Virus record (IMG/VR): IMGVR_UViG_3300002161_000764
Span: 40,409-104,408 of that record
Direction: 5' to 3' (one strand)
From: a virus
Length of the DNA stretch: 64,000 nucleotides
The notes beneath the pieces were generated by a model that was given only the letters and a program-made list of their open reading frames with translations, was not told the origin of the DNA and did not search any database. Shown one piece after another: positions 3,949 through 64,000 of the stretch. A program made the translations under genes and the position numbers. Positions within the stretch are counted from its first letter, which is position 1. The number at the start of each line of letters is the position of its first letter.

Positions 3949-5229
3949 TTAGCTAAATGCCACATTTTGTACTAGAACGCGAGCGTAGTAATCTGCGCTG
4001 TTGCCCAGTGATGTGCCTGTGCTTGTGAAAGTTGCCTTACCATAACGTGTCATCAGGCTGACTGCTGGCATGAAGGTGTTGGCATCAACAACTACGCCAG
4101 AAGACATTAGAGGAACGTATGGGCAGTAGAAGTAACCGCTGTCGAGTTCAGAGGCACCGCCCTTGAAGCCGATCAGGATGTCTTCGCCTGTTGCGCCGGC
4201 AGCATTTACTGCACCGCCGCTGATTGACCATGCGTCATTTACACCCCAATTGTATGAGTAAACCTTCATCTGACCATTCATTGTGCCAACCATACGGTTG
4301 CCAACTGGTGCATCGAAGGAACCTGATACTGCTGGTGCAAATACTGACTTAGCGGCTGACTGGAGCATAGAAGTGATCAGGTGACCACCGACTAGCCAGT
4401 TGCCAGGACCACGACGGGTCTTAGCACCGATTTCGTTAGCCATCTTGTTGATCAGTACGCCGAGGTGGGCATAGCGATCGCCTAGATAGTTAGGTGCAAA
4501 ACCTGGTGTGGCTGATGCAAAGTCGAACGTTGCCGTTGTGTTTGCCAGAGCCAGTAGGTCTGTCAGGATTTCATTGTCGATTTCGTGAGCGATTTGTGCT
4601 GATAGAGCAGCAGTTAGTTCGCTCTCGAGGTCCAGACCGTGCTGTGCATTCAGGTCTTGAGCAGCTTCCATTGACCAGCGAGCTTGCAGCTTACGTGAGC
4701 CAGCTGTGATGGTCTGCTTCAGAACTGATAGACGCATTGCCTTACCACCAAAGCCTTCGAAGTTGCCAGTCGTGGCGGCGAAGCCGTCAGATGTAGCAGC
4801 TGTTACAGCTGGTGGGTAGCCGGCGGTACCGACGTTTGCAGAAGAGTAGAAACGCTTCATCTTGCTGTTATTGCCGAAGGCTTCGTCGCCAGCAGCAATA
4901 TCGTTTCCAGCAACTACTGAGGCGCCAGTGGCGTCAGCAGCTTCGCTGAAAGCAAAACGCAGTGAGTATACTAGTCCTACTGGACCAGACATTGGCTGAA
5001 CGCCAACTAGGTCAGAGGAAATCGTACCTGGAAGGATACGACGGATCATTGGAATTACAATCTTCTGGAAGTTTGCAATATCACCAGCGCCTTGAGCGCC
5101 AGCTGGTGCTGTTTCCATTAGATGCTTTTTTTGGTTTTCTAGAAGAGTCTCGACGACCTGCTTCTTTGAACCCTGGAGGCCTTCAAGAAGAGCCTCTTTG
5201 GTCTCTTGCCAGTTTTCAAACAGTTGCAT
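3949..5229 (-). CDS. 23: Major capsid protein gp23
   Basis: 426 residues, short for the T4 gp23 family (521 in T4) but in the usual range of marine T4-like phages. Family blocks visible: NFQKIVIPMIRRILPGTI near the N-terminus, PMSGPVGLVYSLRF, and a C-terminal NTFMPAVSLMTRYGKA. The first about 45 residues (MQLFENWQETKEALLEGLQ ... KHLMETAPAG) are helical and likely a propeptide removed by gp21, probably near LME or LLE. It forms the hexamers of the head. It has a strong AGGAG Shine-Dalgarno, lies right after gp22 and ends at a strong terminator. Codons are noticeably GC-richer than in nearby minor genes, as expected for high expression. Confidence 0.96.
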   Translation of the reverse strand: MQLFENWQETKEALLEGLQGSKKQVVETLLENQKKHLMETAPAGAQGAGDIANFQKIVIPMIRRILPGTISSDLVGVQPMSGPVGLVYSLRFAFSEAADATGASVVAGNDIAAGDEAFGNNSKMKRFYSSANVGTAGYPPAVTAATSDGFAATTGNFEGFGGKAMRLSVLKQTITAGSRKLQARWSMEAAQDLNAQHGLDLESELTAALSAQIAHEIDNEILTDLLALANTTATFDFASATPGFAPNYLGDRYAHLGVLINKMANEIGAKTRRGPGNWLVGGHLITSMLQSAAKSVFAPAVSGSFDAPVGNRMVGTMNGQMKVYSYNWGVNDAWSISGGAVNAAGATGEDILIGFKGGASELDSGYFYCPYVPLMSSGVVVDANTFMPAVSLMTRYGKATFTSTGTSLGNSADYYARVLVQNVAFS

Positions 5230-6298: not shown

Positions 6299-6508
6299 TT
6301 ATTCGTCTGAAGTTTCTTCTTCAGAGTCAAACTCAGGCATTTCTGCGCTATTCAAACGTTCTTCATTTTCTAAACTTGCTGCTTGTGCTAGACCAGCAAC
6401 TTCTCGTGTCTTAGATACGAAATAATCGTGCATTGAAACGGCAGCTTGTTCTTCCTTGCCGTTAATGATGTCCTGAAGCATTCCTTTTAGAAGTTCTCTG
6501 TTATCCAT
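6299..6508 (-). CDS. Prohead core-like small protein (paralogue of the gene at 7041)
   Basis: 69 residues. Residues 1-40 (LLKGMLQDIINGKEEQAAVS, then MHDYFVSKTREVAGL) are nearly identical to the start of the protein encoded at 7041-7445; the rest is a short Glu/Ser acidic tail. Small acidic proteins with an HDYFVSKT block next to genes 21 and 22 are the usual equivalents of T4 core proteins gp67/gp68. The paralogy is seen directly; the core role is inferred from place and composition. Confidence 0.65.
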   Translation of the reverse strand: MDNRELLKGMLQDIINGKEEQAAVSMHDYFVSKTREVAGLAQAASLENEERLNSAEMPEFDSEEETSDE

Positions 6509-6557: not shown

Positions 6558-6989
6558 TCATTTTGCAATCTCCTCTAAGGATTTTGCTAGACTTGACATC
6601 GCATCCATATAGTCTTGTGAGGATGAAGAGAATTTTCCTTCTAACTCCTTCTTTAGTAGATCACAAACTTCGCCAGCAAATTGCTTCCATTCCTTGATTT
6701 TTCTGAACTCCTTATGCTTTTCATTTATTACCATTGCAACATTCAACGTGCCGTGAGTATTGTATGCATTGCCTTTATCACGAAGACCTTCACGCAGGGC
6801 GCTGATTGCCACCTTACAAAGTTCACGATCTATCACTACCTTTGGAGCAATCGACCCGTACTTATCATCCAACCTACTCTTGGCAATCAAGAGAGCGTCT
6901 TTAACATCAAGAGAAAGGTCAAATGCTGAATCGGATTTACTAACAGTGAATCCGGCAAACCCTTCAACAATAATTTCAGAAAGCTTCAC
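6558..6989 (-). CDS. Putative internal/core head protein with gp21-type cleavage motif
   Basis: 143 residues of helical character. The N-terminus MKLSEIIVEGFAGF resembles T4 capsid-targeting sequences (MKTYQEFIAE), and IVE followed by G fits the gp21 cleavage rule (L/I)xE|(A/G/S). It lies between two paralogous small core proteins and directly upstream of the gp22 region. The rest has no family I recognise; the head location is inferred from gene order and the N-terminus. Confidence 0.6.
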   Translation of the reverse strand: MKLSEIIVEGFAGFTVSKSDSAFDLSLDVKDALLIAKSRLDDKYGSIAPKVVIDRELCKVAISALREGLRDKGNAYNTHGTLNVAMVINEKHKEFRKIKEWKQFAGEVCDLLKKELEGKFSSSSQDYMDAMSSLAKSLEEIAK

Positions 6990-7040: not shown

Positions 7041-7445
7041 TTACTTATCTCCAAGTTGATATGGCTTGTCACCAGCAGAAACTCCGCCAACTTTGCCTTT
7101 GATTACTTGCTTCTTCTTCCAACCTGCCTTTTCAAGGGCACGATGAGTAGCAGCCAAAGATGTACGATTTCCAACGGTAACTGTGTTATCGTCAGGATCT
7201 ACTTCTGCACCATTAAGGTCTTCATAATCCATCGCATCTTTTCCACCTGGGTGATGGTAAACGATCTTGTCATGGACAGTTGCTTCTGCTTCCGAAAGAT
7301 CAAGTTCTTCGAATGCGGTCTGTGAAAGACCAGCAACTTCACGGGTTTTTGAAACGAAGTAGTCGTGCATAGATACTGCAGCCTCTTCTTCCTTGCCATT
7401 GATAATGCTCTGTAGCATTTCCTTGAGTTTTTCTTGATTGCTCAT
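7041..7445 (-). CDS. Prohead core-like protein with extended C-terminal domain
   Basis: 134 residues from ATG 7445, chosen over an upstream in-frame ATG because AAAGGG lies at the right distance before MSNQEKLKEML. Residues 1-40 repeat the small protein at 6299 (MLQSIINGKEEEAAVS, MHDYFVSKTREVAGL). The remainder (HDKIVYHHPGGKDAMDYEDL ... LAATHRALEKAGWKKKQVIK) looks like a small folded domain followed by a Lys/Gly tail. It probably belongs to the prohead core, as gp67/gp68 do. Confidence 0.65.
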   Translation of the reverse strand: MSNQEKLKEMLQSIINGKEEEAAVSMHDYFVSKTREVAGLSQTAFEELDLSEAEATVHDKIVYHHPGGKDAMDYEDLNGAEVDPDDNTVTVGNRTSLAATHRALEKAGWKKKQVIKGKVGGVSAGDKPYQLGDK

Positions 7446-7515
7446 AATTGCCCTTTTTAATATGGTTGTATGCATTTAAATAAATTTAAACTGCACAGTG
7501 GTAATTTATCGTAGA

Positions 7516-8127
7516 TTATTTTGAGCCCTTGCGAATTGCTTCAAGAAGACATAAAATTTCCTTTTTCAAATAAGCTTGTGCATTCTTATCATGTACTACT
7601 GTTTCAGCAAGAGACATAATCTTCTTGCTTCCAAGTGCTTCCATAACTGCAGATGGGTAGGCATCAGGAGCAGATGGCTGTGACACGATGTCTACGGTAA
7701 CGAATGAGAAGTCAGAAACTTCTCCACTCTCATTTACGTTTCCAGTTCCGCGTGATGATACTCCTAGTCTTACTCCACCCTCAATTAGACCGCGTGCAAT
7801 ATTTCCGCAGGGGGTGTTAAGAAGTTTCATCTTGCCAACAACGTTATTTCCATCCATTGTCATTTCAGAAATGACGTGTGATACTCTTCCAAGGTCAATT
7901 GACAGGGTGTCAGGGTGATTTAGTTCGCCGCAAATGCTAAAGCCTTCGCTGATTTTCTTCTGTGCAGACTCAACTACCTTTGACATTTCTGCGGAGCGGT
8001 ACTTTCTTCCATTTCCATTTACACACTCTGCCTGCATCAGAATACCCTTTAGGTATAGGTCTTGGCCCTTGCGCATTTCGCAGAGGCTAGCAGTAGATGG
8101 TGAAAGCTGTTCTGTTAAGATTTTCAT
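7516..8127 (-). CDS. 21: Prohead core protease gp21
   Basis: 203 residues, matching the T4 prohead maturation serine protease family. Catalytic candidates: H71 in CGELNHPDT and S124/S125 in RLGVSSRGTG; NGNGRKYR and VDIVSQPSAPDAYP are further family blocks. The enzyme processes the scaffold, gp23 and internal proteins after (L/I)xE sites. Its own N-terminus, MKILTEQLS, is of the same short amphipathic type as the putative capsid-targeted proteins. It has an AAGGGG ribosome site and its own late promoter, needed because a homing endonuclease separates it from gp20. Confidence 0.92.
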   Translation of the reverse strand: MKILTEQLSPSTASLCEMRKGQDLYLKGILMQAECVNGNGRKYRSAEMSKVVESAQKKISEGFSICGELNHPDTLSIDLGRVSHVISEMTMDGNNVVGKMKLLNTPCGNIARGLIEGGVRLGVSSRGTGNVNESGEVSDFSFVTVDIVSQPSAPDAYPSAVMEALGSKKIMSLAETVVHDKNAQAYLKKEILCLLEAIRKGSK

Positions 8128-9033: not shown

Positions 9034-10698
9034 TTATGCTGCTGGAGGTGTAGTTTCTGCTGCTGGCGCTTCAGCCGGCGCTTCTGCCGGCGCTTCAGCA
9101 GGCGCCTCTCCGCCAAAGAAGCCACCACCTAATTCGCCACCTGCTCCAAGTTCGGCGCCTGGCATACCAGCACCTGCTTCAGGGGTTACTGCTTCTCTAT
9201 TCTCATAAACGGCGGGGTCATAAATTTGCTGCATAGATGGGATATTAGTATTCTCAGTAATCCCACGCTCTTCCTTAACCATCACCTCGTTCATCTGGAT
9301 CTCATCATCGGTCAGACCTAGGTATCTCTTCAGAACGAAGCGCTTTGAGAGTGTCTTTTCAGCAGAGATATTGTTGAACGAACTAATGAGATCTGCATCA
9401 AGAGCCGCTTGGCGATAAAGGGCAAAGTTTGCTGGTTCTGGGAGTTTAAGGCTGAACAGTTCGTCATCAATCTTTAGACCACACACCTTTAAGTAAATCT
9501 TAAACTCATTGTCAAGAATATCTTCAAGACGATCTTGAAGGCGCTTGACGAAGTTAGCAAAACGCAGTTCCTCAATATAAGCGATACCCACTTTTCCATC
9601 ATTGTATTGAGACCCACCAGCATCAGAGCCAGAAAGGTACGATGATGGTACTCTGAGCCCTCGGAACAATTTATCTCTAAAGTACTTTAGTAGATTTGTA
9701 CCGAAGTCCTCAGTTCCACCTGCTAGAGTTTCTACCTTCGATCCTCGACCAGTTGCAGTGACTGGGAAGAAGTAGTCTTCTTGAAGGCTTGTTGGGTCAT
9801 ATTGTCCGTCAATGATGTCCTTCTGACCGCTGCTTGTTTGACCAGGAACTCTCTTTTGGCGAATTTCATTCTTTACCTGCTCGAGGTACTGCTTTACCCG
9901 CTGTGCTGGCATATTGCCGACGTCGACGTAGAACACACGCCGCTCTGGAGCACGTACGATTCTATAAATGACAACTGCATCTTCAATCATTGACAGTTGT
10001 CTGAATATTCTAAAGATTGGGCGAAGAACTGACTGACCAAATGGTGCGCTGTCTCCCATCTCATCTGACATTGAGAAGTGAATCATCGCCGCTGCAGGAA
10101 TAACATCCATCTCCTCATTTCTCACGCCATAGTTAGATGTGCTGCCTGATGGCTTTCCTGGTTGCTTAAGATGGTAGTTGATTTTATTTCCCTGTTGGTC
10201 AATTTCAATACCATGCACTAAAGATGGATCAACCCACACCCAGCGCTTCGTATCAGATGTCTTTCTGAAGAAGCAGTCACCATATTTGATGAGATCACGG
10301 CAAATCTTGAACATTCGACGGTTGAGTTCCTGCATCTGCGACCATTGTCTAACAGCCTGACGAAGGGTAACTGCTGTTGTATCTGAAACGTCTTGATTTT
10401 CTTCTTTGTTATATTCAATAATAAATGGAAGCTTTGTCTTGCTATCTTTATTGCTCATCTCTTCTGCAATAACGTCAAGTGCTCTGGAAATATCAATGTC
10501 TGCGTCCATTGAGTCATATTGTTTGTAATTTGCCATTCTTGACCCTGGGCCTCTCAGAATTTGAGAGTACCACGTGATTGCCGCCATTGACGTTAGGTCA
10601 GTTGTCCTTGGGTCATAGGCATCTGTAGAAATGGTAGTATAAAGTTGCTTTCTTGACGCTGGAGTTATAATTTTCCAATATGATGAAAATTGTGCCAT
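9034..10698 (-). CDS. 20: Portal vertex protein gp20
   Basis: 554 residues. Family blocks: AITWYSQILRGPGSR, YDSMDADIDISRALDVIAEE, DCFFRKTSDTKRWVWVDPS, VIYRIVRAPERRVFYVDVGN and RVPSSYLSGSDAGG, diagnostic of the T4 portal used as a marker gene. The dodecamer forms the DNA entry ring and nucleates head assembly. The last 50 residues are an Ala/Gly/Pro/Glu tail with four APAE repeats, not seen in T4. It lies downstream of the tape-measure gene and two bases before the inserted endonuclease. Confidence 0.96.
   Translation of the reverse strand: MAQFSSYWKIITPASRKQLYTTISTDAYDPRTTDLTSMAAITWYSQILRGPGSRMANYKQYDSMDADIDISRALDVIAEEMSNKDSKTKLPFIIEYNKEENQDVSDTTAVTLRQAVRQWSQMQELNRRMFKICRDLIKYGDCFFRKTSDTKRWVWVDPSLVHGIEIDQQGNKINYHLKQPGKPSGSTSNYGVRNEEMDVIPAAAMIHFSMSDEMGDSAPFGQSVLRPIFRIFRQLSMIEDAVVIYRIVRAPERRVFYVDVGNMPAQRVKQYLEQVKNEIRQKRVPGQTSSGQKDIIDGQYDPTSLQEDYFFPVTATGRGSKVETLAGGTEDFGTNLLKYFRDKLFRGLRVPSSYLSGSDAGGSQYNDGKVGIAYIEELRFANFVKRLQDRLEDILDNEFKIYLKVCGLKIDDELFSLKLPEPANFALYRQAALDADLISSFNNISAEKTLSKRFVLKRYLGLTDDEIQMNEVMVKEERGITENTNIPSMQQIYDPAVYENREAVTPEAGAGMPGAELGAGGELGGGFFGGEAPAEAPAEAPAEAPAAETTPPAA
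9064..9112 (-). repeat. 12-bp tandem repeat in the portal C-terminus
   Basis: About four copies of a GC-rich 12-mer coding APAE at the end of gp20. The copies differ at synonymous positions, so selection on the peptide seems likely. Confidence 0.7.
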
Positions 10699-18465: not shown

Positions 18466-18933
18466 TTATTTCTTTTCAGTGAAGTTGTCTTCGAAGTACT
18501 TTGCCTTTTGCACCGTGTAGGTGAACTCATCTTCATCAGTCTGGCGGATTAGATAGTCGCCCTTCTTAATGGTTTCAGTGTTACCCTCAAGGTCAATTTT
18601 TGAAGTATCACCTTCATACTTAAACGCTTCTACTTCTTCAGCATCTCGATAGACAATAAATCCCTCAGCATCTTCTTTTTGGTTTGCTCTTACAGGAACA
18701 TAGTTATCCTCTAGTTCCTCTGAATCCATAGTGGAAACAAGTTTGCGCTTGCCTGAAGTATCAGAGAACACCTCATATTCTGTTGGGACGCTATCTGGTA
18801 CTTTTTTGACCATATAGACAGCATTAGGCACATAGTTAAGTGCGCTGTCTTTATTTTCCTTCCAGATATCAGCAGCCTTGATTGTTTCAAGGGCTTCTTC
18901 ACTGATAGACAAAAGTTCCTGGAGAAGTTTCAT
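18466..18933 (-). CDS. Hypothetical acidic protein with capsid-targeting-like N-terminus
   Basis: 155 residues beginning MKLLQELLSISEEALETI, nearly the same start as the protein at 62183 (MLKLLQEL). The rest is acidic and beta-rich (YEVFSDTSGKRKLVSTMDSE, KGDYLIRQTDEDEFTYTV). No family recognised. If the N-terminus is a capsid-targeting signal, it would be an internal head protein. Its start overlaps the end of the gene at 18899 by 35 bp. Confidence 0.65.
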   Translation of the reverse strand: MKLLQELLSISEEALETIKAADIWKENKDSALNYVPNAVYMVKKVPDSVPTEYEVFSDTSGKRKLVSTMDSEELEDNYVPVRANQKEDAEGFIVYRDAEEVEAFKYEGDTSKIDLEGNTETIKKGDYLIRQTDEDEFTYTVQKAKYFEDNFTEKK

Positions 18934-22143: not shown

Positions 22144-23304
22144 TTATTTTTCCACGTAAAAAATTTCACCACAATCCCATACAGGGCTTTTCAACCCGTG
22201 CTTAAATTGTGGATGAATTTTATATTCCTTTGGTTCATCAAACCCAATTATGTTTAGATTAAACTGCTGTGGAAGTGGCCAAGCACCACTAACCTTTAAA
22301 CACTTACCGTCAAGTAAAAGTTGTTCATCTTTTGAAATATTAATGTAGTTTTCAAACAGCCTATCCTTTACTTCATTTGGCATTATATCAATTTCATCTT
22401 CAAACAGCGATATAAGCGTAATTGACTTTCTTAGGCAGGATATTAATTTTTCTTGGTGATAGCCATTATAGGCACCTGCTGCTTCACTATGCCAGTATAA
22501 GCCGTTAATTTCAATTGCAAGGTTATGTTCAGGCAGATAGAAATCCAGTTCCCTCGGCTTTATAATTTTTCTATCATTTTCAACAAAATTGATGTTATTT
22601 TCTAACAACCACGTTTTAACGCGTATGTGTTGAGTGCTAATCTGGTGTGGAAAACATTTCTTGCACCTTGGTATTTGAGAGCACCAAACACGTCGTGAAA
22701 AAATATGACCACAAATATGCTGTAGTTTTACTTCTTGAGAACTAGTAGGATTTTCAACAAGTGATAGATTTTCTTTTTCAAGCAAGAAAGACAATCTTCT
22801 GGTGAATGCCTGAGACTTAATTTCCTGGGATTGATCACGCAATTTGCCTAGATTAAAGGCGTTCTCTACACCATATTTTTTAAGCATTACTTTTTTAAAA
22901 TAGGAACCTCCAAAATAGTGCTCTGGTGTGGAGCCATATTTCTGAAGAACCGTTGCTGCTGCTTTATGTTTTGTTACTTCTAATTTTTGAGGATAGTCTA
23001 TTCCATATTTTTTAATGTTAGATTGCTTTCTAGCATACTGAGTTGTCTCAGCGTTAGCGCTGCATCTTGCAGAACAAAACTTTCTAAAAGTGCCTCTTGC
23101 GAATATTGTAGATTGACCACAAATAGCACACCCCTCAGGTTGCCCGTTTTGATCTATCCAAGCAACCTCAGCAGGTGTTCTTCCATTTAGTAACTTTTTG
23201 ATTTGCGGAGTTACTAACTTTTTCCAATTGGAATTTATTGAACCATCCTCTTTTATAATTGCTGATTTTTTAAGAATATCAGTTATCACTGCTGTTGCCA
23301 CCAC
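22144..23304 (-). CDS. EDxHD (Vsr-like) homing endonuclease with zinc fingers
   Basis: 386 residues. An N-terminal zinc finger (CAICGQ ... FCSARCSAN), repeated KKYG units (IKKYGIDYPQK, LQKYGSTPEHYF, LKKYGVENAF) as in NUMOD-type DNA binding, a second zinc finger (CGHIFSRR ... CKKCF), then the nuclease core: RELDFYLPEHNLAIEINGLY followed by WHSE and SLFEDE. This resembles I-Bth0305I-like enzymes. No ATG exists before the conserved part; the frame opens right after a TGA with GTG GTG, inside the last codons of gp55 (26-bp overlap), so a GTG start is likely. Codons are more AT-rich than in gp46/47, consistent with arrival by transfer. Confidence 0.85.
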   Translation of the reverse strand: MVATAVITDILKKSAIIKEDGSINSNWKKLVTPQIKKLLNGRTPAEVAWIDQNGQPEGCAICGQSTIFARGTFRKFCSARCSANAETTQYARKQSNIKKYGIDYPQKLEVTKHKAAATVLQKYGSTPEHYFGGSYFKKVMLKKYGVENAFNLGKLRDQSQEIKSQAFTRRLSFLLEKENLSLVENPTSSQEVKLQHICGHIFSRRVWCSQIPRCKKCFPHQISTQHIRVKTWLLENNINFVENDRKIIKPRELDFYLPEHNLAIEINGLYWHSEAAGAYNGYHQEKLISCLRKSITLISLFEDEIDIMPNEVKDRLFENYINISKDEQLLLDGKCLKVSGAWPLPQQFNLNIIGFDEPKEYKIHPQFKHGLKSPVWDCGEIFYVEK

Positions 23305-23737
23305 TCATAAAAGCTGTTTCATCAGAAGTTTTTCCAGATGAACGCTCTTGAAATGAGAAGGAAGGATTAACGCCAGCATCCACAAGAAGTTCATCGCGTA
23401 TGTCACGTTGCTTCTTTTCATCTGCAAGGTATTGAAGAAAACTTCGATAAACAGCAGTAGTGTAGAAAGCGAATGGATTGTCTGACTTCTCAGGATCAAA
23501 CTTGTGCCAGTTTGCACACAGATTAACAACGGCAAATGACACCATATCTTCTCTAAATGAATATCCGCCAAAGCTTGCGGAATAGGAATACCGCTCGGCA
23601 ATCATGTGGAGATATTTTGCGAGAATAGGTGACAACTTGCCCTTTTCTTTTGCCTCTTTAATGGATTCAAGCAATTGAGCATTAGTGACATAATGTCCCT
23701 TCGTAGTAGTAGATCTTGGTTTCTTGTAGGTAGGCAT
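23279..23737 (-). CDS. 55: Late-transcription sigma factor gp55
   Basis: 152 residues (T4: 185). The core block EDMVSFAVVNLCANWHKFDP with NPFAFYTTAVYRSFLQYL is the sigma region 2-like part of the T4 gp55 family, which directs host RNA polymerase to TATAAATA late promoters. Many matching octamers occur in this window. Location beside gp47/gp46 follows T4. The 3' end is overlapped by the homing endonuclease start. Confidence 0.93.
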   Translation of the reverse strand: MPTYKKPRSTTTKGHYVTNAQLLESIKEAKEKGKLSPILAKYLHMIAERYSYSASFGGYSFREDMVSFAVVNLCANWHKFDPEKSDNPFAFYTTAVYRSFLQYLADEKKQRDIRDELLVDAGVNPSFSFQERSSGKTSDETAFMSGGNSSDN

Positions 23738-33509: not shown

Positions 33510-33908
33510 ATGAAACTAACTGAAATTCTTGATGAAAATGAATCGGTGTTGGCAGGTATACTTGAGCGTAAATTTGGAAAGGAACCAATTTACGTAGTAG
33601 CGCGCTTTCGACGTCCATTTACACTTGGCAGAAAACTTTATGTTGGTAAATTACGATTCAATGCTGGTGAAAAAATACAAAAGGAAGACATGCGAAAAGA
33701 TGGAAACTGGCGCTTTATTTTAAAACTAGACAGCCCTAAAGATGTAGTTTACCCACTTGCAGATTATTTTGACAAACAGTTTATGCTAAAGAAAATGGGT
33801 AAAGACAATAAGTTGGTACTAGTTAATAGACAGCAAGAAGATTATTATCCATATCCAGAAGAACTTGAAGCAGGCTTTGCAAAACTTGAGGCCGCAGAAA
33901 AAACATAA
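33510..33908 (+). CDS. Hypothetical protein with capsid-targeting-like N-terminus
   Basis: 132 residues beginning MKLTEILDENESVLAGILER. The middle has basic beta-strand pairs (IYVVARFRRPFTLGRKLYVG) and the end is acidic. It sits between gp6 and the giant wedge gene, 7 bp after gp6. No family recognised. Confidence 0.65.
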   Translation: MKLTEILDENESVLAGILERKFGKEPIYVVARFRRPFTLGRKLYVGKLRFNAGEKIQKEDMRKDGNWRFILKLDSPKDVVYPLADYFDKQFMLKKMGKDNKLVLVNRQQEDYYPYPEELEAGFAKLEAAEKT

Positions 33909-39900: not shown

Positions 39901-42900
39901 ACACGCTTTGACGAACACCGCTGGTTCACAATTGATGACCTAAATCAAGACACCTTCTTTAAGGCAGAACCAGTTGGTAGTTTCTCCAAAACGGTTACTA
40001 TGAATGAGATAGTTCAACTACCATTCATTGCAGATGCCCTAATCATTTCTGGCTCTGTCACACAGCTAAATGCAGCTTCTTTACTTGCGACTGCTAATGG
40101 AACGATAACAATTACCGGTTATGGAGCAGCAACACCACGCTATAATCCAATAAAATTGTTTAACTATGAAGACGATGAACTAGTTGAAGAAATTCCACTA
40201 TGGCACCCTGCTACTGGAAAGCACTCACCTGTTGCACTAGAATCAGTTAATATTATTAGTTCTGAAAATCCTGCAAAGTACAACTATTCAACACTGCTAA
40301 TTAATAATCCTGCATACGATGCACTTCGTGCTTGGGGAGATAAAGAGGTAGGAAGAATTTGGTTTAACACAAAAAATTTGTTCTATGTCCCTTATTATGA
40401 TTCATTTGTTTTCCCAAATAGAGCAGAAAGACTAAGCCGCTGGGGAGCACTTGCCGATTATGCAACTATTGATGTTTATGAGTGGGTAAAATCTGCCGTG
40501 CCACCATCTGAGTACGATGCTCTTGCACGAATTGACGCCGGCAATGCAGATATTGATGACACTGTAAAAGCATCTGGGCAAGTTGCGCTTGAGGAACTTT
40601 ATGCCCGTGATAGAATTTATAAGATTGCACCTGTCGCTTGGTCATTTTCACCTGTTGCAACTGATGTTGATTGGGGTGATAGACCACCTATGAAGTACAG
40701 CGGTGACATTACAAACTCTGTTGGATTAGTTGTAAACGGTGAATTCATATTCTTAGACACCGGCTCATTTGCGCAACTGGGTATCATTTCTGGAGATAGA
40801 GTTGGCACTTGGCAACATGGAGTTTCTCCTGGACCATTATCAGAGGGTGTTATAAATGATACCTTCCAGCAACTACTTCTGGACAGTTCATCTGGAACAT
40901 CACTTGCACCAATACCAACTACTGTTATTTCAAGCGTGGGTCCTGATGATTTTACTTGTTCAGTTTCAGTTGAGGCTGTTTCTTACCCAGATACCCGCTT
41001 TATTGGAGAGATAGCAGTTACCCAAGAACAAGATGTAAATCAGTTAACTGATATTGATGGCAATCTAATTGCGCTTTGGGACCACAACTTCTATATTCGC
41101 GTGACAGAGGTATCAACTGGCGAATATTCTCGTTTTCTTGCGTATACAATTAGAATTGCTGGTTCAGGGTCTGGTACCGCTCTTGACCCATTCGTACAGG
41201 ACCCATTAGTAACTTCAGTGACCAATGGTTCAATTTATGACTATACTATAACTGAACTTGGTTTAAGATTTAGGGTGGTGTCATCTACAACTGGTATAGT
41301 TGATGGTGATTTTGCGGTAAGAGCAATAGGGCAGGCATATGGAACAAACACCCTACTTATTAAAGACGCTGTCACTGTAAATTGGATTATTGCAGCAGAA
41401 GATGGTCAATATACAAATGATACCACAGATACACTGTACGCATATAACAATGAGATTGGCTGGCGTGTATGGAATGTTCCAACACAGGCTGAATTGAACA
41501 GTGATGGTAAACAACCAAGCAGCAGTTGGAAACCATATGTTGGAGAGGCAAAGGAGTTCTATCCTACTTTTGATGACCTGCAGGAAGCAGTTGAGTACAC
41601 AGAAAATCCGCTCACATTAAACGATGGGACAGTAGTACCAAGATACCTAAGTGATTGGACAGAGTGGGAAAAACTACAGGATATAAAGGTCTCAAGAATT
41701 TCAGCAACAACTGCTGATATGCTATTCAATATTTCTGAGTTTGATTTTTCACTCACCAAGTTTGATGTTAGCCGCACCGCAGTCTATGTAAATGGAATTG
41801 CTCAGTTGAAAGCAGCATATGAAATATCTGGTGGAGAACTTACCGTTCTGAATGTGCAGCAAGGGTTCACTGTAGATATAATTATGCGCAAGTATAATCC
41901 ACCTGCATCTGAACTGGGATTCAATCCAGATGTCGAAGATGACCTGTCATTCAGGAGACAATACAAGAAGGACTATGAATATGTTGCACAGGAAGTGAGA
42001 GATAAGGATGGAAACCTAAACACCATCTACTATTACTTCTGGGTAAAAAATAAGTCAACAGTTGCAACTGGAAAGAAAATGTCTGTACAGGCCATAACAG
42101 ACAATTTAAGAACCGGTCCTGTAAACTTCCTTACGTTCCAGAATATTCTTCCAGCACAGACGGTTCCAACAATTCTGCCTTGGAGATATGATGCTATCAC
42201 AATTTCTGGTCTGTCTTATGTTGTTACTAAGGATGATACCTTCAAACTCAGATTTACCAGAAACTTTACTCTTAGAGACGACCCAAATGAACTTGACTTG
42301 AAGAATACTCACACAGAATGGGGGCTAATTAGACCTGCCCAGAAGTCAAAGATCCCTGAGAAATTATGGTTGAAGTTAGTTGATAGCATGGCAGGACTAG
42401 ATGCTGCTTTAAATCCAGTTCCTTCTTTGCGTCGAGTTCTTTATGATGAAAGAAATGGAACAACTACAAGGTATGGCTTTGGTAATGAGCAAACTCTTGC
42501 TCCTTCTAATTTGCTCAGGTCATCAGTTTCTTACACTATAGTAAATACTAAACAAACTGAAGAAACAATGACAGAAATAGTGCCTGACTATATTGAATTT
42601 ATTGATGCGGTGGTTGATATTGCATCAACAGATGAATATGATAACCCGATTGAAAAGCAGGAAGCAAAGAAAACAAAGGCACTTCAGGTTGAGCAAGTAT
42701 TCTTCTCAACATCTGCCCAGATAAGATCAACAATGACTGATATTTGGACATCAGCATCTGTTGCCCAAATTAATGAAATTTTCTTTGCCGCGCTTGAGGA
42801 CATACTGGCAAGTAACTTTGAACTTACCGATATTTTCAAGACATCAAGGCTTTCCATTTATTCAATTCAAGAAAAACGCGCCGGAAACGTAGTACCAACA

Positions 42901-61505: not shown

Positions 61506-62186
61506 TCATTCAAGTCTATTTATCGCGGTCTGCCAGAATAAAGCCGCTCTTTCTTTCAATTCTTGCTTTAATTCTTGATTAAACTCAACTAAAAACTCCA
61601 TTGGGAAGCCTGTTTCTGCTACCATTAAAATTACACCGCTGTTTATTTGTGTATCAAACATCTCATTGTGTGCTTCGGCATAGAAGCAAATTTGGAGTTT
61701 ATAATCGTGAATGTCTGTATTATTTTTAACTCTATTTGATGTCTTAAAGTCAATAATTGCGGGTCTTCCCTTATACACACCAACAAGGTCACATCGCCCA
61801 CCGATTTCATATGTTGAGCAGTAAAGGGGAACTTCTTGACCCCAGACTTCATCAATTTTAGAAAGTTTTAACTTAAGAGAATTGAATGACTGCATATCAG
61901 CATATGGCACTGACTTACCGTCAATAGGCTGATTTACGTCTTCACCTTTAAGATAGCGCTCTATTAGCAAATGAACATTAGTACCGCGCGTCGTAGCAGC
62001 ATGACTTACAGCCGCTGCCTTAGCAGCGCCAAGACTTTCCTGCCACTTCTTCAGTGAAGCCTTCTTTTCTTCAGCCTCAGTCTTTCCTAAAACAGTGGTA
62101 ATGGAAGGATAATAACCAAAGGGAGTGTCATACCACCTTTGGTTATTATGAGGAACAGTTGAAAGTTCGGTGTAGTTAAATTTCAC
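61506..62186 (-). CDS. RecB-like PD-(D/E)XK exonuclease
   Basis: 226 residues. RGTNVHLLIERYLKG (H72, the RecB/Cas4-type His), GGRCDLVGVYKG (D133) and AIIDFKTSNR (D146-x-K148) form the PD-(D/E)XK site, and YKLQICFYAEA is the Q/Y motif of this clade. Such phage nucleases process DNA ends in recombination or degrade host DNA. It overlaps the upstream start by ATGA. Confidence 0.85.
   Translation of the reverse strand: MKFNYTELSTVPHNNQRWYDTPFGYYPSITTVLGKTEAEEKKASLKKWQESLGAAKAAAVSHAATTRGTNVHLLIERYLKGEDVNQPIDGKSVPYADMQSFNSLKLKLSKIDEVWGQEVPLYCSTYEIGGRCDLVGVYKGRPAIIDFKTSNRVKNNTDIHDYKLQICFYAEAHNEMFDTQINSGVILMVAETGFPMEFLVEFNQELKQELKERAALFWQTAINRLE
61517..61524 (-). promoter_or_regulatory. T4-type late promoter (GATAAATA)
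   Basis: The minus strand reads GCGATAAATAGAC inside the 3' end of the nuclease gene, 26 bp before the ATG at 61491. Confidence 0.5.
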
Positions 62187-62854
62187 TTTAGTCGTCTATT
62201 CATACGAACGAGACGTCTAGAAGTAGGTTTCCTGCGAGTGCGTTTAGATTTCAAAATTCTGATAATCTTCTTTTTTCTGGATGCTAATTTGAGTTTCATT
62301 CTAGTTCGCGCTTTAGCGCGAGGTTTAAATGCAGCACGTGCACTTGACACAACTCTACCTTTTCTAAACCCCGATGTTACTCTAAAACCGCGCTTTATCT
62401 TCTTTCCTTGACGTCTAAAAGCACGCTTGATTCCTTCTTCTAACTCCTCTTCATTGGAAGATTTGATTATATCATCATCTTCATCCTCAGCATCTTCTTC
62501 AGAAGGTTGCTCTTCTTCATATGTTTCAATGCCAAGTTCTTTTAGAGTTTTTTCATCAAGCACTATACCCTGTGGATAAATTTTGTCATTATCTCTAGAC
62601 AGAACTATACTGTCATCTAAAACTTCTACATACACCGACTTGCCAGAATGGTCCTCAATCTCACCACTCTCACCGTCTTCAGCAAGGTCAAACAGATCAT
62701 TCAGTTGATTAATATCTAACTTTATGATAAATCCTTCTGCTGATAAGATGACGCCGTGATTTGCTAAGTGCCCAACGTTCCATCCTCCTTTAGGGAGGAT
62801 AGGCTCATCAGATACCGTCTCCTTAGACGTAAGTTCCTGTAGAAGTTTCAACAT
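62183..62854 (-). CDS. Putative internal head protein with basic C-terminus
   Basis: 223 residues: a targeting-like start MLKLLQELTS, a folded beta-rich part (20-110), a very acidic stretch (112-140, EEEQPSEEDAEDEDDD) and then 83 residues that are mostly Arg/Lys (RRQGKKIKRGFRVTSGFRKG ... RRKPTSRRLVRMNRRLK). The junction is LEE|G at 138-141, matching the gp21 rule LxE|G. Cleavage would release a basic DNA-binding peptide from its acidic mask. The head role is inferred, not shown. Confidence 0.6.
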   Translation of the reverse strand: MLKLLQELTSKETVSDEPILPKGGWNVGHLANHGVILSAEGFIIKLDINQLNDLFDLAEDGESGEIEDHSGKSVYVEVLDDSIVLSRDNDKIYPQGIVLDEKTLKELGIETYEEEQPSEEDAEDEDDDIIKSSNEEELEEGIKRAFRRQGKKIKRGFRVTSGFRKGRVVSSARAAFKPRAKARTRMKLKLASRKKKIIRILKSKRTRRKPTSRRLVRMNRRLK

Positions 62855-62858
62855 TGGA

Positions 62859-63710
62859 TTACAGGGCTCTACCTTGCTTGCTTAGTTTAGCAACCAACGT
62901 ATTCATTAAACGAAGCATTGATGATTGGCTTCCAATAGCCTTATCACCCATTTCAATCTGTTTCATCTTCATCTTAACTGTTGATGGAAGCTTTGCAACA
63001 TCTACACCGAGAGCAGCAAGTAGCTGCTGAGCAGCCATTTCAAACTCAGATAGTTTTTGTCCTTGAGCAGGAGCTTCATTCATTTCTTCTTCTTTAACGG
63101 TAACTTCAGAGCCAACATTTGCAAGATCTACTCCAAGTTGGTCAGCCAGCATCATAAACTTAGAGCGAACTACGCCACGTTGAACTAGTGATGCAGTGTC
63201 CATTAGTGATGCAGCATCGCGTCTCATTGCACGTGTGAGGAGACCAGATGGGAAGTTTAGGGCTGCTAAAACTTCCTCAATCTGCCTGACTATTTTTGAA
63301 CCAATTAGGTCAATTTCCTTATCGCTTGCCATTGGCTTCTTAGTAATCTTATCAACAACTGGTGCTTCTTCTGCTTCTTTAACCTCTTGACGAGCAAAGC
63401 CCTTTGCAGTTGCAAGCGCAGCAAATAAACGTTGCGCAGCAATGCGTAGAGGTCTGTTGGTTCTCATTTCATCTGCAACTTCAAGAGCAGCGCTTTTTAC
63501 TGCCTTTGGGCGGCTTTCAAGCGTCTCAAGCGAAATGCCTAGCAGGTGATATAGTTGGACGATTTGACGTGCCATAGGCATGGTCAAATTTGCAACTGCT
63601 GGGCTTGTTGATGGAATGCTTGTGATGTCAAAGTTATCCTTAAAGCCATCAACGTCTTTTTCTTTTGCCTCGTTTAGAACGCGGCTTAGGAATTTTTTAC
63701 CGATAGACAT
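62859..63710 (-). CDS. Putative head-associated protein
   Basis: 283 helical residues. The start MSIGKKFLSRVLNEAKEKD has LNE|A, a good gp21 cleavage pattern at residue 14. Two similar helical blocks recur (LYHLLGISLETL ... AAQRLFAALATAKG and AAQQLLAALGVDVAKL), suggesting an internal repeat. AAAGGAG lies five bases before the ATG, and 25 bp overlap the preceding gene. No family recognised. Confidence 0.6.
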   Translation of the reverse strand: MSIGKKFLSRVLNEAKEKDVDGFKDNFDITSIPSTSPAVANLTMPMARQIVQLYHLLGISLETLESRPKAVKSAALEVADEMRTNRPLRIAAQRLFAALATAKGFARQEVKEAEEAPVVDKITKKPMASDKEIDLIGSKIVRQIEEVLAALNFPSGLLTRAMRRDAASLMDTASLVQRGVVRSKFMMLADQLGVDLANVGSEVTVKEEEMNEAPAQGQKLSEFEMAAQQLLAALGVDVAKLPSTVKMKMKQIEMGDKAIGSQSSMLRLMNTLVAKLSKQGRAL

Positions 63711-64000
63711 AAAATCTCCTTTAGTGTATGAAAGTTATTCTCAGCCGCTTTGTTAGCGAGAATTTGTGTTTCTTCAACAGGGGACTTTCCCGTAAGTCCT
63801 CTGCCTAATTTCTTTAGAGCAGACTTTTTCTTTTCTGCTGGTTTTTCTTCTTCAGACTCTTCTTCAGACTCTTCTTCAGACTCTTCTTCAGACTCTTCTG
63901 ATTTTTCTTCCTCAGGTTCAGCCTCTTCAGATGGCTCTTCTTCAGATGGCTCTTCTTCAGATGGCTCTTCTTCAGATGGCTCTTCTTCAGATGGCTCTTC
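63686..64000 (-). CDS. Partial acidic repeat protein (N-terminus beyond window)
   Basis: The frame is open from the right edge to TAA at 63686 (104 codons visible). It has about five EEPSE units, then four ESEE units, then a basic, helical tail (KPAEKKKSALKKLGRGLTGK). Acidic low-complexity proteins next to head-type genes suggest a prohead core or linker role, but this is inference. Confidence 0.7.
   Translation of the reverse strand, partial: EEPSEEEPSEEEPSEEEPSEEEPSEEAEPEEEKSEESEEESEEESEEESEEEKPAEKKKSALKKLGRGLTGKSPVEETQILANKAAENNFHTLKEILCLSVKNS
63852..63899 (-). repeat. 12-bp tandem repeat (four exact copies, ESEE)
   Basis: On the plus strand TCAGACTCTTCT occurs four times in a row without change; it codes for ESEE on the minus strand. 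Confidence 0.95.
63927..64000 (-). repeat. 15-bp tandem repeat (about five exact copies, EEPSE)
   Basis: On the plus strand TCAGATGGCTCTTCT repeats with period 15 and runs off the window edge; it codes for EEPSE on the minus strand. The perfect identity suggests recent expansion. Confidence 0.95.

Follow-up and report, generated by a model that had tools for sequence, protein, structure and literature searches.

A candidate internal head protein precursor with a conserved, predicted prohead-protease site in T4-like environmental phages

The window analysed here was the whole 64,000-nucleotide stretch that makes up the last part of a virus record of 104,408 bases (IMG/VR record IMGVR_UViG_3300002161_000764, positions 40,409 to 104,408). 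A minus-strand gene for a 223-residue precursor was found near the end of the window, directly upstream of an exonuclease gene, and a T4-type head module was encoded in the same window. The features are given below; the arrow marks the known or predicted cut in protease motifs.

62183..62854, minus strand: whole gene, 223 aa precursor (ORF with ATG at 62854 and stop ending at 62183; 54% identical full-length IMG/VR homologue)
62831..62854, minus strand: N-terminal leader, residues 1–8 (MLKLLQEL), a short helix, capsid-targeting-like (MxLLxE[LVI] start in most members; AlphaFold2 helix 3–9; comparison with T4 IPII/IPIII)
62534..62800, minus strand: small beta-rich folded pro-region domain, residues 19–107 (AlphaFold2 pLDDT; kept across the long-form lineage)
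62435..62533, minus strand: acidic linker, residues 108–140, mostly disordered (composition and pLDDT)
62432..62443, minus strand: predicted prohead-protease site LEE↓G, residues 138–141, cut after Glu140 ([LIVF]xE in 41/41 relatives; Glu constant on the tree)
62186..62434, minus strand: mature basic domain, residues 141–223, net charge +37, predicted to form a beta-hairpin followed by two long helices (composition, alignment and AlphaFold2; family of at least 342 viral stretches)
61506..62186, minus strand: PD-(D/E)XK exonuclease (phrog_298, E 3.6e-53), whose start overlaps the stop of the basic-protein gene
62859..63710, minus strand: neighbour gene whose product has LNE↓A close to its N-terminus (MSIGKKFLSRVLNE↓A) and is probably a further capsid-targeted protein of the head interior (four loci compared)
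3949..5229, minus strand: major capsid protein of the gp23 type, itself with a predicted LME↓T site (phrog_138, E 7.4e-88; [LM]xE↓[ST] kept in relatives)
7516..8127, minus strand: gp21-type prohead protease, the likely cutter (phrog_207, E 1.5e-57; active-site blocks GE-x-x-HP and GVSSRG in common with T4 gp21)
9034–10698: portal gp20, part of the T4-type head module
23279–23737: late sigma factor

The next gene upstream was cut off by the record end inside a tandem repeat that codes for (EEPSEE)n (63814–64000).

An initial annotation, made from the letters alone, had pointed to an MLKLLQEL start, an acidic stretch, LEE↓G at residues 138–141 and an Arg/Lys-rich tail of ~83 residues, and had named no strand; all of these were present in the minus-strand ORF. 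Asp and Glu made up 18 of the 33 residues (55%) from 108 to 140, and residues 141–223 contained 37 Lys or Arg among 83 residues and no Asp or Glu. The pI was 4.05 for residues 1–140 and 12.0 for residues 141–223, with a charge of −30 in the pro-region and +37 in the mature part. Further LxE-like triplets occurred at residues 5–7 (LQE↓L), 57–59, 99–101 and 104–106. This indicated that the motif alone was weak evidence and that the weight of LEE↓G came from comparison with relatives.

Neither the window protein nor its basic domain had a match in PHROGs, Pfam, NCBIfam or the PDB sequences, and a direct tblastn search of the annotated phages in INPHARED with the window protein gave no match. One IMG/VR homologue, which was 54% identical over its length and carried LDE↓G in the same place as the LEE↓G of the window protein, pointed on to gp12 of Salicola phage SCTP-2. 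The homologue in locus L002, used as query, gave a weak match to SCTP-2, and the alignment of the tails then revealed the family. An alignment of three basic domains led to at least 342 related stretches in IMG/VR, 80 of which were retrieved for analysis. The consensus of the domain was GxK..[KR][FY]R[CV]TSGxRKGR[IV]V ... K..RT[KR]R..P.S.R...LN. The sole isolate relative was SCTP-2 gp12 (ASV44027.1), with a basic domain identical at 41% to that of the L002 homologue and at 37% to that of the window protein. The domain was absent from the bacterial and archaeal species genomes in a scan of limited sensitivity. By sequence, this is a large family of T4-like environmental phages that the family libraries searched do not describe.

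The part preceding the basic domain varied widely. It comprised ~70–160 residues in the long-form lineage, to which the window protein belongs, and mostly a bare leader of 8–27 residues elsewhere, and SCTP-2, L087 and L088 had no pro-region at all. In one locus (L068:5332-6243), a PG_binding_1 domain (E 1.1e-18) was found in the pro-region between an MYLREL leader and an LEE↓K site, and L036 gave a below-threshold AlbA_2 match (E 2.6e-4) between leader and site. Two tandem basic-domain paralogues, both bearing a leader and an xE site, were observed in some short-form loci (L066:5508-6117, L041:5932-6579, L033:5684-6276, and L070:5678-6297).

Conservation of the predicted cut site, a comparison that the initial annotation had proposed, was assessed in leader-bearing members with <85% identity, with the conserved [FY]R[VC] motif as the anchor. 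All 41 non-redundant members contained [LIVF]xE at a fixed place before the basic domain, with L or I in 30 of them; the offset from the anchor was 16 residues, or 14–15 in one subtype. When the upstream residues were shuffled in 5000 trials, a mean of 6.5 members had the site (SD 2.3, maximum 15), vs. the observed 41. P1 was Glu in 41/41 and P3 was L (17), I (13), V (10), or F (1), with 13 different residues at P2 and G (27), A (6), K (6), E (1), or R (1) at P1′. On a tree of 39 offset-16 sequences, P1 changed 0 times, P2 at least 23 times and P4 at least 25 times, and P3 stayed hydrophobic throughout; since this set was chosen by the motif, the absence of changes at P1 is partly by construction, and the unselected test is the 41/41 against shuffles. 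A short protease motif such as the L/I-x-E of T4 gp21 would show this profile, with Val apparently tolerated at P3 as well. The L/I-x-E cleavage rule of T4 gp21 and the T4 targeting leaders are documented (PMC9026906); the departures from the strict rule were Val at P3 (10/41) and Lys at P1′ (6/41). In SCTP-2 gp12, L087 and L088, the start Met coincided exactly with P1′, and a stop codon in the same frame came shortly before it. The product is thus also made naturally without a cut, which argues that LxE lies outside the fold.

Most members started with MxLLxE[LVI] or with a short leader of the MLLREL type, and 28 of the 41 members fitted the strict leader pattern; this conservation supports the proposal in the initial annotation of a capsid-targeting-like N-terminus. 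Short forms began, for example, with MLLRELIE↓G, MLLRELFTNQIDE↓K or MQIADIIPE↓G, and the T4 proteins IPII and IPIII start with MKTYQEFIAE↓A. The leader was also common in the neighbourhood. Across all loci, the pattern began 32% of the genes that lay on the same strand as the family gene and no more than 4 kb from it vs. 5% of other ORFs, a count in which the latter class holds some spurious ORFs and related genes are counted repeatedly. The chance rate of the loose pattern was 4% per position, as measured at internal positions. Counted by gene family, leader-rich families occurred on both sides of the family gene, and most other families were close to zero. One leader-bearing neighbour matched the virion structural family phrog_14154 (E 5.9e-12). 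A leader-bearing neighbour family matching phrog_14154 (L070:7417-8316 and relatives in many loci; MNIREIS..TAASLNESLAKRFG) had no relative in the annotated phage collection. Counterparts of the upstream neighbour gene at 62859..63710 carried LNE↓A in L002 and L008 and LSE↓G in L011, and upstream genes in other long loci started with MSLLKEL, MKLLSEI or MKLIQEL. Genome-wide, the leader count in G000 was modest (6 of 97 genes vs. 1.3 expected). Three more genes of the window had the same kind of leader and are candidates for head targeting: 6558–6989 (MKLSEIIVE↓G), 18466–18933 (MKLLQELL) and 33510–33908 (MKLTEILDE↓N).

No recognisable leader was found in the SCTP-2 lineage, in the long forms L025 and L027, and probably in L024 and L026. 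This suggested that the leader was not the sole route into the head. If the leaderless members are head proteins too, there must be other routes, for example by charge or by contacts with the core.

The structure was predicted by AlphaFold2 on a 17-member long-form alignment, with a second run on one short form. The pLDDT was about 82–93 for residues 21–110, <50 for 113–133 and about 90–96 for most of 141–200. In the model, the basic domain comprised a beta-hairpin (142–149, 152–159) followed by helices 182–206 and 211–222, and the short-form run gave the same layout. The BFVD model A0A248SJ00, a 108-aa viral protein that was 49% identical and is evidently SCTP-2 gp12, matched with a TM of 0.83. 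The PDB contained no fold match for the basic domain and no convincing one for the beta-rich domain of the pro-region; the predicted fold of the basic domain is apparently new. The term protamine-like, used in the initial annotation, implies a disordered Arg/Lys-rich chain and does not suit a confidently predicted hairpin with two helices.

In the long forms, the mean charge was −23 for the pro-region vs. +31 for the mature part, and the two were correlated (r = −0.80, 17 sequences that are not independent). Short forms had a mean of −4 before the cut vs. +31 in the mature part, and the acidic linker had no counterpart in most of the family. The acidic mask proposed earlier is therefore confined to the long-form lineage, with its charge-matched pro-region, and fails as a general feature: other members keep the site but have little or no acidic region, so charge balancing is not the general reason for the cut. 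It is a plausible refinement limited to the long-form lineage. The other earlier suggestion, bulk genome packing, is doubtful. At a T4-like copy number of about 360 (PMC9958956), a charge of +37 per copy amounts to about 13,000 charges, enough for roughly 2% of the phosphates if the genome is 300 kb long or 6% if it is 104 kb. With only a few percent of the DNA charge covered, bulk condensation is improbable at this copy number. The T4 internal proteins are located in the disordered inner DNA region and have been reported to speed packaging (PMC7697877); by analogy, such a T4-style effect would be a sufficient role for the basic domain.

Gp21 was encoded in 9/9 family-bearing records >180 kb, one of these genes being truncated where its record stops. 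In these phages, the major capsid proteins had a conserved [LM]xE↓[ST] near residues 36–45 with a variable middle residue: LME↓T in the window, LAE↓T in L105, LKE↓T in L106, LVE↓T in L108, and LKE↓S in SCTP-2. These predicted sites are as would be expected if one protease acts on both kinds of protein. The site conservation, the gp21 homologue in the phage and the naturally pre-cut members together support a gp21-type cut at LxE↓G that would free a basic product, as first proposed. Two related small genes (6299–6508 and 7041–7475) were located between the protease gene and a probable gp22-type scaffold gene; their products had a common N-terminal stretch, IINGKEE.AAVSMHDYFVSKTREVAGL, and a weak likeness to the virion structural protein phrog_15696 (E 0.038 and 0.0066, respectively), reminiscent of T4 gp67. 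Near the family gene, the late-promoter motif TATAAATA was counted 27 times on the plus strand and 13 times on the minus strand in 609 kb.

Sequence is a poor guide to internal head proteins, which are little conserved. In T4, IPI is injected and guards the DNA of the phage against a nuclease of the host. The present family resembled T4 IPI, IPII and IPIII in its predicted basic products, a short N-terminal leader with an E-F/L-I core (MKTYQEFIAE↓A in T4, MLLRELIE↓G in short forms), a predicted L/I-x-E cut site and a phage that encodes gp21, all of them features of T4-type capsid-targeted internal proteins; the leader was assigned by sequence resemblance. However, it differed from them in having a conserved small domain and, in the window lineage, a strongly acidic pro-region of 140 residues instead of 10–19 in T4. 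No PHROG, Pfam or NCBIfam match indicated homology to the IPI, IPII or IPIII families. The best reading of these sequences is that the protein would work like a T4 internal head protein, though outside the IP sequence families. Inner head proteins of giant phages (SPN3US gp47, gp50, gp53 and gp54; phiKZ gp93) also have pro-regions, mostly >100 residues in SPN3US, that are removed at an x-E type motif (PMC5694885). By their description, with which the comparison was made, the SPN3US proteins follow an AxE rule, and nothing like a basic hairpin-helix domain is described among their products (PMC5694885). SCTP-2 gp12 has the homologous basic domain, but it starts at the cut position and has no leader, pro-region or site.

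Taken together, the product of the gene is probably a precursor that, in a T4-like phage, gives rise to an internal (core) protein of the head; the prohead protease would cut it to free a folded basic domain. The short helical leader, by its similarity to known leaders, its sharing with neighbours and its clustering, may carry the precursor into the prohead core. There, a gp21-type protease would cleave LEE↓G after Glu140, at the end of the disordered acidic linker, as the conserved site suggests. The freed domain of 83 residues, with a net charge of +37, would stay in the head, bind incoming DNA and perhaps be ejected with it. In the long forms, the nearly charge-balancing acidic pro-region probably prevents the basic part from binding nucleic acid before cleavage, a lineage-specific role. 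These comparisons lend good support to processing by the prohead protease; DNA binding in the head and ejection are less certain than entry, cut and retention. The overall interpretation of the initial annotation was thus partly supported.

Other explanations were considered. T4 gp68 also has an acidic first half and a strongly basic second half, with a stretch (RKAxxTKxxNPA) in common with the window protein, and by eye membership in its family was attractive. A prohead core or scaffold protein of this kind would be digested in maturation, as T4 gp68 is broken down to small peptides (PMC9958956), and its basic piece would have no role in the finished virion. These genomes gave no gp68-family match, which may leave that slot free. 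However, hhalign with nine gp68 sequences gave a probability of 1.8% (E 0.028) over only 20 columns, and the gene at 62183–62854 was located away from gp20 (9034–10698) and gp21 (7516–8127), whereas the T4 gp68 gene lies between gp20/gp67 and gp21. The failed profile comparison and the different gene position spoke against family membership. The mature domain of the window protein was also without any [LI]xE, so the protease would spare it, and a role of the gp68 kind is unlikely.

Two further explanations concern the basic domain and the motif. The basic domain might be a mere anchor or packaging handle, with the domain between leader and site as the cargo, freed from the DNA-bound anchor by the cut. 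Unrelated domains do fill this slot: a beta-rich one in the window protein, PG_binding_1 in L068 and possibly an AlbA_2-like one in L036. Most short forms, however, had only the leader there and yet kept the site and the basic domain, and we consider such an arrangement quite improbable. Alternatively, LxE↓G might be the structural start of the basic domain, capping a helix or strand in a non-virion DNA- or RNA-binding protein that works with the linked exonuclease. The exonuclease was linked in 78 of the 84 loci searched, usually 2–4 kb downstream in short-form loci. Against this, members of the SCTP-2 type retain the fold without LxE, P2 varied freely while P1 and P3 were held, and the neighbours bore leaders, one of them belonging to a virion structural family. 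This made a structural cap very improbable. The precursor of an internal head protein therefore remained the preferred reading.

The combination of leader, fixed [LIV]xE site, basic hairpin-helix domain and leader-rich gene cluster flags such proteins in at least 342 stretches of uncultured phages that carry no family annotation, and it offers a general sequence-only route to prohead-protease substrates and targeting leaders. Members beginning at the predicted cut amount to a natural experiment on the purpose of the pro-region. More tentatively, we speculated that these proteins form a very common, undescribed family of internal head proteins that T4-like phages in the environment activate by proteolysis. 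A DNA-binding basic domain of new fold, sometimes present as a tandem pair, would be set free in the prohead from pro-regions that can replace one another (a bare leader, an acidic domain matched in charge, or a peptidoglycan-binding domain) and be ejected into the host with the genome. The finding is larger than first stated, extending from one gene to a widespread unannotated family with modular pro-regions.
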